Shown: positions 4,666 to 8,012 of the stretch, one piece after another | How positions within the stretch are numbered: the stretch's first letter is position 1 | Layout: every line of letters starts with the position of its first letter | Program-made: the position numbers and the translations under genes | Notes under the pieces: model-generated | Told to the model about the DNA's origin: nothing | The model's database searches: none | What the model saw: only the letters and a program-made list of their open reading frames with translations | NCBI GenBank assembly: GCA_024687845.1 | Contig: JAILEL010000236.1 | Location: 1 to 8,012 of the forward strand | Direction of reading: 5' to 3' | Origin: Eubacterium sp. | GTDB taxonomy: Bacteria > Bacillota_A > Clostridia > Lachnospirales > Lachnospiraceae | Length of the DNA: 8,012 bases

Positions 4666-6063
4666 ATGGGGTTAGTAGCAGGATTTATGGTGCCTCATCC
4701 GCCGATGATCATTCCTGATGTTGGCAGGGGCAGTGAGTCTAAGATACAGGAGACGATTGATTCATATGAGAAGGTGGCTAAGGAAATCGCGGCTATTGAG
4801 CCTGATACGATTATTATAACAAGTCCACATTCTACAATGTATTCAAATTATTTCCATATATCACCAGGCAAGGAAGCCAAAGGCGATTTTGGAGATTTCA
4901 GGGCATCGGGTGTTAAGTTTGAAGAAGAGTATGATTTTGAACTTGTGAATCAAATCGAAGAGAAAACATTTGATGACGGCTTTCCAGCAGGCTTTGAAGG
5001 AGAACGAGAAAAAAAGCTGGATCATGGAACAATGGTGCCTCTCTATTTTATTCGCAAATTCTATAAGGGAGGAAGGATAGTAAGAATTGGACTATCGGGA
5101 CTATCCCTTGTGGATCATTATCAACTGGGAATTTATATTAGAGATGCTGTGAATGAAATGGGGAGAAAGGCTGTATTTGTAGCCAGCGGTGATCTGTCGC
5201 ATAAGCTTCAGGACTATGGACCATATGGTTTTGCAAAGGAAGGTCCGGAATATGACAAAAGGATAATGGATGTAAGTGGCAGGGCGGCATTTGATGAAAT
5301 GCTTGAGTTCGATGAGGATTTCTGCGATAAGGCTGCTGAATGCGGACATAGATCATTTGTAATTATGGCAGGTGCATTTGATGGACTGAATGTAGATGCA
5401 AATGTACTTTCGCATCAGGATGTTACAGGTGTTGGATATGGCATTGTTACTTTTTATCCGGGAACAGAGAATGAAAACAGATGTTTTCTTCAGAAGCAGC
5501 AGCTTAAGGTTGAGGAAAAATATACTCATTCAGATGGATATGTTCTTCTTGCAAGAGAGGTTATTGAACTATATATAAAAGAAAGAAGAAAGCTTAAAAT
5601 TCCAGATGATATTTCTGAGAATCTGATGGGCATGCTTCCAGAAGAAATGTTTAGCAGAAGAGCAGGTGCATTTGTTTCTATTCATAAGCATGGTTCACTT
5701 AGAGGATGCATCGGGACGATTGGTCCGGCAACGAACAGCCTTGCTCAGGAAATAATCAATAATGCAATAAGCGCATCAACCAGAGATCCGAGATTTGATC
5801 CAATCACTGAGGAAGAACTGAAGTGGCTCGAAATTAATGTGGATATACTTGGTGATGCTGAGGATATTGATTCAAAGGAACAACTGGATGTAAAACGCTA
5901 TGGGGTAATTGTAAGTTGTGGAAGGAGAAGAGGTCTGCTGCTTCCTGATCTGGAAGGTGTAGATGATGTTGACACACAGATATCTATAGCGATGAAAAAG
6001 GGTGGAATAAAGCCCGAGGATGATTATAAATTACAACGTTTTAAAGTTGTGAGACATTATTAA
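4666..6063 (+). CDS. Memo-AMMECR1 fusion (AmmeMemoRadiSam system proteins B and A)
   Basis: Fusion of two conserved families of uncertain function. Residues 1 to about 270 form a Memo/LigB-like domain related to class III extradiol dioxygenases, with candidate metal ligands in VPHPP (H11), SPHS (H55), LDHGT (H120), SGDLSH (D176, H179) and CGH (226-228). Residues about 285-465 are an AMMECR1 domain with the hallmark LRGCIG (345-350), RAGAFVSIHKHG (332-343) and ASTRDPRFDPIT (370-381). Bacterial AmmeMemoRadiSam loci normally add a radical SAM enzyme, but none is seen here. Instead thioredoxin follows after 31 bases. GGGGAGGT at 4649-4656 gives a strong start at ATG 4666, 23 bases after the regulator. 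Known Memo proteins bind iron or copper and are linked to redox balance. A redox-linked oxidase or repair role here is inference. Confidence 0.85.
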   Translation: MGLVAGFMVPHPPMIIPDVGRGSESKIQETIDSYEKVAKEIAAIEPDTIIITSPHSTMYSNYFHISPGKEAKGDFGDFRASGVKFEEEYDFELVNQIEEKTFDDGFPAGFEGEREKKLDHGTMVPLYFIRKFYKGGRIVRIGLSGLSLVDHYQLGIYIRDAVNEMGRKAVFVASGDLSHKLQDYGPYGFAKEGPEYDKRIMDVSGRAAFDEMLEFDEDFCDKAAECGHRSFVIMAGAFDGLNVDANVLSHQDVTGVGYGIVTFYPGTENENRCFLQKQQLKVEEKYTHSDGYVLLAREVIELYIKERRKLKIPDDISENLMGMLPEEMFSRRAGAFVSIHKHGSLRGCIGTIGPATNSLAQEIINNAISASTRDPRFDPITEEELKWLEINVDILGDAEDIDSKEQLDVKRYGVIVSCGRRRGLLLPDLEGVDDVDTQISIAMKKGGIKPEDDYKLQRFKVVRHY

Positions 6064-7515: not shown

Positions 7516-7674
7516 ATGGATAAGTATGTATGTGGACCATGTGGATATATATATGATCCTGAAGTTGGAGATCCTGATGGAGGAATAGCTCCGGGAACTG
7601 CATTTGAGGATATTCCGGATGACTGGGTATGTCCAGTGTGCGGTGTTGGCAAGGATATGTTTGAAAAAGAGTAG
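7516..7674 (+). CDS. Rubredoxin
   Basis: A 52-residue one-iron electron carrier, below common ORF size cut-offs. Iron ligands are C6 and C9 in YVCGPCGY and C39 and C42 in [11 protein letters not shown]. The middle has the standard [16 protein letters not shown] (13-28) and the aromatic/acidic FEDIPDDW (30-37). Length and spacing are those of a classic clostridial rubredoxin. AAGGAGGT at 7502-7509 sets the ATG at 7516. In anaerobes rubredoxin passes electrons to superoxide reductase, rubrerythrin or flavodiiron oxygen/peroxide reductases, which fits the redox theme of the preceding operon. No such partner gene is in the window. The stop codon is followed directly by the end of the multi-hairpin element. 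Confidence 0.95.
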
Positions 7675-7689
7675 TTTTTATTCACGGTT

Positions 7690-7808
7690 AACTCAAAAAA
7701 CACTCTTAAGTCCGCATCGCCTAACGCTTATCCTTATGCAAGCATAAATAAGCTTATATGCGATGCTCTATTGCTGCTAACGCAGCACTGAATCGTGTTT
7801 TTTGAGTT
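7690..7808. other. Domain I of the element: three-way junction
   Basis: A perfect 14-bp stem (7690-7703 with 7795-7808) closes two branches. Branch one pairs GCATCGC (7714-7720) with GCGATGC (7760-7766), then GCTTAT (7726-7731) with ATAAGC (7748-7753), then TTATGC (7734-7739) with GCATAA (7742-7747). Branch two is TGCTGC-TAAC-GCAGCA (7772-7787). The right arm of the closing stem ends with six T residues and GAGTT, so it could also stop rubredoxin transcripts. Confidence 0.7.
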
Positions 7809-7935
7809 CCTGCTTGTGCCATATCACTACGTGATATGCAAGGATTGCATGGCAATCCTTGGTTCTGCTATGCAGAACGCATCCTCACTTCGTTCGGACC
7901 ATCGATTACTATGTAATCGACGGCTAATTCGCAGG
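7809..7935. other. Domain II of the element: cluster of short-loop hairpins
   Basis: CCTGC (7809-7813) can pair with GCAGG (7931-7935) to enclose four hairpins: an 8-bp stem with loop TAC (7820-7838), a 10-bp stem with loop ATG (7839-7861), a 7-bp stem with loop TAT (7862-7878) and an 8-bp stem with loop TAT (7902-7920, flanked by CC/GG pairs). The stretch 7879-7901 is mostly unpaired, though GAACG (7875-7879) could alternatively pair with CGTTC (7891-7895). Confidence 0.65.
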
Positions 7936-7937
7936 TA

Positions 7938-7997
7938 TTATGAGATATAATATGAAAAACAAACTGCAAGCAGTTGTTTTTCAATTATATCTCATAA
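7938..7997. other. Domain III of the element: long bulged hairpin
   Basis: Three helices stack into one arm: 14 bp (7938-7951 with 7984-7997), 10 bp (7953-7962 with 7974-7983) and 4 bp (7964-7967 with 7970-7973), interrupted only by single unpaired A residues at 7952 and 7963. All 28 pairs are Watson-Crick. The arm directly abuts the right terminal repeat. Confidence 0.75.
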
Positions 7998-8012
7998 ACC
8001 GTGAATAGTAAC

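Follow-up and report, generated by a model that had tools for sequence, protein, structure and literature searches.

A composite repeat beside a rubredoxin gene of Eubacterium sp.: a putatively mobile, MITE-like family with a compensated and strand-biased fold

To our knowledge, the folds of bacterial MITEs have mostly been predicted and have seldom been taken further. In a review (PMC10969869), bacterial MITEs such as QMITE2 have terminal repeats, 7–9 bp duplications and transcripts with predicted stable stem loops; the term "IS66" is absent from its text. The pneumococcal BOX and RUP sequences are small dispersed repeats whose ends pair in a predicted fold, and the optional boxB module of BOX folds largely by itself inside the element (PMC3049150, from the text of which the word "compensatory" is absent). 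A third system is the ISBst12 group of the IS66 family, in which ISDge4 is described with an 8-bp repeat and with GTGACTACTCAGCA / GTAACTGCTCAGCA as its ends (PMC12898284).

The window analysed here, i.e., the whole stretch of 8,012 nt that makes up contig JAILEL010000236.1 of Eubacterium sp. (assembly GCA_024687845.1), ends in a repeat, element A, that resembles these MITEs in terminal repeats, duplication length and stem loops. It differs from MITEs in general in that many genomes share its interior architecture, which shows compensatory change and a strand bias. A second repeat, element B, lies in A as boxB lies in BOX, and the ends of A pair as those of BOX and RUP do, but A has other ends and other hosts in what is a comparison by description only. 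The kind of element is already known, as folded MITEs and modular BOX repeats (PMC10969869 and PMC3049150). New within the literature searched is a variant that is dispersed across a family, is compensated and strand-biased, and has a fold that was not found in the likely parent type. Literature searches (journals other than subscription journals, preprints not included) gave matches to the A end sequences only in papers with non-bacterial titles, and the A family was not recognised in what they returned on structured MITEs, IS66-type MITEs and Lachnospiraceae repeats. The window element and a clean copy (L067) gave only matches far under the gathering scores in Rfam at relaxed thresholds. No Rfam family reaches its gathering score within the window, in agreement with a sequence-only reading that had recognised no known RNA class. 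A repeat with an optional module outside every Rfam family is described here; its 98 distinct copies from many genomes permit a direct test of fold conservation. Since the fold outlasts the stem sequence, the question of by-product versus selected MITE folds becomes testable, with named non-MAG strains available.

At the end of the window the open reading frame list shows a rubredoxin gene, followed by a gene-free stretch up to the last base. The stop codon of this gene is TAG at 7672–7674, and position 7674 is also the first base of element A. Element A spans 7674–8012 with the ends GTTACTATTCAC..GTGAATAGTAAC and contains no ORF of 80 aa or more. Its right border, 8012, is the final base of the window; a right-hand target duplication would fall beyond it. 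The terminal arms are 16 nt in length and 88% complementary, and the left end of this copy is degenerate. The features are as follows.

7516–7674, plus strand: rubredoxin gene, intact, with a PF00301 match in the domain search.
7666–7673, no strand: AAGAGTAG, the 8 bp where the left target duplication would be expected from the duplication length of the family.
7674–8012, minus strand (marked as structured by the strand tests): whole element A, MITE-like, including element B; based on same-ended copies in relatives, GTTAC..GTAAC borders with the 8-bp duplication of the family, and the fold.
7674–7689, no strand: left terminal inverted repeat, GTTTTTATTCACGGTT, family form GTTACTATTCACRG; based on repeat search, copies in relatives and flank comparison.
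7997–8012, no strand: right terminal inverted repeat, AACCGTGAATAGTAAC; same basis as the left repeat.
7690–7808, minus strand: branched domain; based on repeat search, fold, covariation and internal-loop count.
7690–7703 / 7795–7808, minus strand: closing stem of the branched domain, 14 bp.
7704–7705 / 7793–7794, minus strand: two-by-two internal loop of the branched domain, GA/GA on the minus strand.
7714–7766 and 7773–7786, minus strand: arm and hairpin of the branched domain, within the closing stem.
7809–7813, minus strand: first arm of the small CCTGC/GCAGG hairpin of A, a hairpin that occurs without B in L037 and L052.
7816–7927, minus strand: element B, a five-hairpin repeat in the loop of the CCTGC/GCAGG hairpin; based on solo copies, copies in A and covariation.
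7931–7935, minus strand: second arm of the CCTGC/GCAGG hairpin; based on copies in relatives.
7936–7997, minus strand: long bulged hairpin of A with GCTTGC at its apex, as read on that strand; based on fold, covariation and loop classes.

The sequence-only reading had described a nearly self-complementary element of 330 bases, and all of its listed parts are recovered by repeat search, including the 14-bp closing stem with two branches inside it and the long bulged hairpin. The element was placed at 7679..8007, where it does lie, but the real span is five bases longer on each side; the terminal repeats are likewise present but are longer than the 11 bp first read. Four hairpins had been counted within the CCTGC/GCAGG stem. 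These are perfect or nearly so, and a fifth, imperfect hairpin brings the number to five. The view of the whole as a single unit does not hold, as the five hairpins belong to another repeat that lies within the first; that the element is a composite of two repeats had been missed. The fold is far beyond chance, with z values of -14.4 (plus strand) and -13.0 (minus strand) and 0 of 100 dinucleotide shuffles as good on either strand.

With the gene-free stretch as query, matches in pieces were found in 13 of 20 related genomes. At two places in genome G009 and one in G003 the query parts 6–142 and 255–339 are adjacent and the middle is absent, which defines element A. Copies of A, the search for which the earlier reading had proposed, are present in the genus and the family. 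Matches were found in at least 23 of the 61 genomes of the genus of G009 (best 12 candidates per genome scored, the counts being lower bounds), in at least 38 of 397 genomes of the family (covariance model R1, built from 30 copies; best 5 candidates per genome) and in at least 13 of 391 genomes drawn from the class (a second model, R2; best 6 per genome), where some matches are to the long hairpin alone. The family is one of gut bacteria, probably Lachnospiraceae. Full copies other than that of the window are mostly 160–240 bp. Two of the genomes with matches are named non-MAG strains, Lachnospiraceae bacterium AC2031 (G005) and LC2019 (G020), which we take to be cultured rumen isolates. Collections of phages and plasmids gave no match to the window piece, nor to two distant copies of A. 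A tblastn search with the rubredoxin for an empty site, covering the first 36 loci, had a sole match (L029), in which A is absent downstream and which is too diverged to give an exact junction.

Of the 38 A-bearing genomes 37 were checked, and 21 of these have the exact ends GTTACTATTCACRG, with 243 sites in genome G303; a reversed-pattern control gave 2 sites over all 37 genomes. Flanks were compared for 74 of 75 copies, one being omitted for a missing flank. Agreement between flanks peaks at 8 bp: at 44 loci the mean is 4.36 of 8 compared with 2.31 for swapped flanks, and six of these loci have exact 8-bp duplications where 0.000 are expected (L208 is additionally exact at 10). For the subtype of the window (30 loci) the agreement is 3.50 of 8 compared with 2.40 for swapped flanks and none is exact, as if these insertions were older than the other copies of A. 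Element A is short and gene-free, its copies are dispersed, its terminal inverted repeats are conserved, and the family has a target duplication of 8 bp. On this sequence evidence the A family is mobile, and the earlier guess of a MITE holds in part, as does the companion guess of a selected fold.

The architecture of A is constant: its ends pair as a closing stem, and with this stem go a branched arm, then a small hairpin and finally the hairpin that is long and bulged. In A1, the subtype of the window (30 copies), 44 of 55 consensus pairs show double-sided change, and 90.8% of cells are paired compared with 73.7% in shuffled alignments and 36–42% when partners are slid. In A2, which comprises 37 further and mostly distant copies, double-sided change is found in 68 of 76 pairs; 80.7% of cells are paired compared with 62.8% shuffled and 36–41% slid. 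The A2 structure is a hand drawing based on a single member (L183), which favours it on this measure. The terminal repeats of A2 covary too (13 of 16 pairs). In A1 and A2, none of the 500 shuffles attains even one of the five measures, a result to be read with the facts that relatedness alone can exceed such shuffles, that the structures were derived from the same copies and that related copies are not independent. A further alignment, A3, has both strands mixed and was left out of the counts. Despite the relatedness of the copies, the fold is judged to be conserved from the effect size and the slid controls. Stems are compensated, and the data support a fold of A that is selected and is kept while the stem sequence diverges.

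Variants were also scored against the majority of each of several groups of copies. In four close groups (mean identity 93–96%), 4 variants are double and keep a Watson-Crick pair, and 48 are single-sided; of the latter, 20 give G-U on the minus sense, 15 give it on the plus sense and 13 break the pair. Seven groups at 75–90% identity have 85 single-sided variants (29 G-U minus, 12 G-U plus, 44 broken) and 93 double variants. Genome G303 alone, with 11 copies, has 13 double and 40 single changes when counted by cells. These numbers come from few groups, formed by hand and in some cases crossing genomes, and the variants are not independent. Fresh copies thus vary rather freely and lasting lineages are compensated, as under selection that acts among lineages and not on every copy. 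Because close copies carry mostly single changes and diverged copies matched doubles, the fold seems to matter for spreading or for long retention.

The two strands are not equivalent. In a strand-neutral count, single non-Watson-Crick pairs inside helices comprise 55 G-U pairs on the minus sense and 23 on the plus sense. Counted as distinct contexts the numbers of G-U-type pairs are 46 and 19 (p 0.001; 98 distinct copies of 99), and an earlier count with 75 copies gave 38 and 17; in the closest groups the preference is weak, 20 versus 15. Loops on the minus sense of the 75 copies include 154 of the GN(N)A type compared with 7 for the complement, and 98 two-base loops of the CTTG type compared with 6, with 303 other small stems in neither class. 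GA/GA accounts for 40 of the 90 two-by-two internal loops. Stable motifs of RNA include GNNA loops, CUUG loops and tandem GA; since DNA too can form some of them stably, they do not distinguish RNA from single-stranded DNA. The evidence points to the minus strand of the window as the structured strand. This is opposite to the sense of the rubredoxin gene and had been missed in the earlier reading.

Element B is the middle of the query (about 140–260), which occurs alone, with matches in 32 of the 61 genus genomes. Where A is without B, the site reads CCTGCTTCGCAGG (L037, L052). B lies in the loop of the CCTGC/GCAGG hairpin in the window and in L040, where both A ends are present. L063 and L064 show this placement too, with a recognisable 3' half of A but no recognisable left end. 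The orientation of B is identical in all four. Similarity of L040, L063 and L064 to the window is limited to B and the surrounding hairpin despite A-type flanks, which implies that B entered A repeatedly or outlived the sequence of its host. In 19 copies of B, 20 of 37 pairs show double-sided change, and 93.9% of cells are paired compared with 83.5% shuffled and 29–39% slid; 0 of 500 shuffles reach the measures. The strand signal of B is on the minus side as in A (loops 46 versus 2, with 20 others; G-U 10 versus 2). Other copies of B are found in further intergenic places. Of the 37 loci scanned, three have B-type hairpin arrays together with tRNAs. In L165 the array adjoins a tRNA; in L054 and L156 the arrays lie within tRNA clusters and are oriented both ways with respect to the tRNAs.

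A search for the IS66 transposase (PF03050) in 21 genomes gave matches in six. Ten loci were viewed and an A-like end pair was seen only in L303, GTTACTGTTCAG. The L303 transposase has a PF03050 match with an E value of 4e-23 and scores 161.8 bits with the NCBIfam IS66 model, which is under the cut-off of 180. Its relatives are present in at least 34 of 397 family genomes (best three candidates per genome scored), and 16 of 30 fetched loci were inspected. Both ends are A-like in 8 of these 16 IS66-type loci, with 10–11 of 12 bases as in A, e.g., GTTACTGTTCAC, GTTACCATTCACGGGG, GTTACTTTTCAC, GTTACTTTTCACGGGGTGGGGAA, GTTACAGTTCAC and similar. Seven loci have both A-like ends and both flanks. Three of these have exact 8-bp duplications; the remaining four agree at 0, 4, 2 and 2 of 8 positions, i.e., have no 8-bp duplication. 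From the DUF6444 domain and the single gene we take the IS66-type loci to be of the ISBst12 group. Such loci resemble A in their ends and in the duplications of the three, but A is without a gene, and a search of 18 loci with model R2 did not find its branched fold (best E 2.9). That insertion sequences with similar ends belong, by their transposase matches, to the IS66 family was a further point missed before.

Membership of A in IS66/ISBst12 is not claimed. An IS66-type element would be only the likeliest mobiliser, because same-family IS66-type elements have similar ends and some have the same duplication length. An L303-type relative occurs together with A in two of the 38 A-bearing genomes listed (G361, G380), where about 3.3 are expected by chance, and no IS66 domain was found in G303, the genome with most ends. 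Gaps in the MAGs may hide the partner, or another transposase may act.

A different candidate for an autonomous partner, an IS4-family element between A-type ends in L204, was rejected, as its relatives carry their own AATGTCATTAAGTTAA-type ends and seem to occupy terminator-like hairpins; the A-type ends surround that single copy. It is more likely to be a visitor inserted in an A-type palindrome. Besides L204, facing A ends 0.8–4 kb apart include, among the sites listed, at least a 1.1-kb pair in G206:C36, and a further facing pair spans 614 bp in G217 (L280). As a separate observation, L264, L267, L268 and L269 have an IS4-family element with AATGTCATTAAGTTAA-type ends that lies, by eye, in terminator-like hairpins with duplications of approximately 9–10 bp. 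This element may target palindromes.

The explanation that best joins these results, and one we consider probable, is that A is a MITE-like element that would be mobilised in trans by an IS66-type (ISBst12-like) transposase. The window copy lies at the stop codon of the rubredoxin gene, with B in the loop of a small hairpin of A. The stems are kept by compensatory change, the minus strand has the more favourable pairs and loops, and the fold would serve the propagation of A itself, as a transcript or as single-stranded DNA. We infer the role in propagation from the single changes in close copies, the matched double changes in diverged copies and the lack of a preferred gene orientation.

A further reading is possible but doubtful. 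A would have a conserved RNA or single-stranded DNA module that is specific to one strand, is required for spread and was not found in the insertion sequences with similar ends; it would be comparable to a SINE, in bacteria and with plug-ins such as B as options. The folded strand would then act on the transposase, on a transposition intermediate or on the tolerance of the host for the insert. Arms of A are lost in L080 compared with L050 (apparently the same site), L118 and L104, and in L285–L288 A is reduced to 46–54 bp with duplications of 5, 7, 6 and 7 of 8, respectively. Such short or end-only copies with partial duplications count against the main explanation, since the fold may be dispensable for movement, unless they shrank after insertion. 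L205 shows the opposite change, an expansion of A by tandem copies inside the long hairpin.

It is unlikely that A is a structured RNA useful to the host, i.e., that its copies are domesticated regulatory or untranslated-region sequences with a fold that serves the neighbouring genes. Strong covariation and strand bias would suit such a role, as would position: A is upstream of at least one gene at 32 of 33 loci and between convergent genes at the other, according to crude longest-ORF calls that cover 36 of the 75 copies (loci of at least 2500 bases; 33 with both neighbours called, and an ORF called across the element in 3 of the 36). At these same 33 loci, however, no orientation bias of A to neighbouring genes was found. 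The structured strand runs along both neighbours at 12 loci and against both at 11, with 9 divergent and 1 convergent. The exact target duplications indicate that some copies are probably recent, and very close copies have unmatched stem changes, neither of which favours a host function. A location between convergent genes is rare, 1 of 33 compared with 9 of 33 between divergent genes.

We regard it as quite unlikely that the complementarity of the stems comes from a mutational mechanism, template switching between the arms, and not from selection. Near-perfect inverted repeats are known substrates for template-switch repair, and the terminal repeats also covary; template switching could be a source of part of the covariation. 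However, specific mismatches persist, as in the GA/GA internal loops, and the loop sequences are strand-specific. Concerted repair should appear early, but the close groups have 4 double compared with 48 single variants and G303 by cells has 13 double compared with 40 single changes, a pattern that fits immediate repair of one arm from the other less well. That A is an ordinary MITE whose interior fold is merely inherited and has no role is very unlikely, as decay would break the stems and the paired cells of both A1 and A2 are well above their shuffled values, even though short copies of A exist and a search of IS66-type loci did not find the fold.

In addition to element A, further repeats were observed. 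At L281:301–595 the long hairpin of an A copy holds another small repeat, which has its own interior and the ends GTAACTGTTCAG..; these ends are related to those of A, and the 8-bp duplication of the small repeat is near-exact by eye. L282:301–444 differs from A in its interior, but it has A ends and its 8-bp duplication, AATGTTCC, is exact. L200, L201 and L202 are folded repeats with ends such as GTAACTATTCAG / CTGAATAGTTAC and are perhaps a sister family of A.

A neighbouring protein in the window has its closest relatives in rumen Lachnospiraceae, with approximately 75% identity at best. The gene at 4666–6063 encodes LigB and AMMECR1 domains with a weak Memo match and adjoins genes for thioredoxin, thioredoxin reductase and rubredoxin; its relatives occur in contigs that carry the label Treponema as well as in rumen Lachnospiraceae. 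The gene at 13–2002 is of the glutamate-cysteine ligase family (GCS2) and overlaps a class-II glutamine amidotransferase gene.
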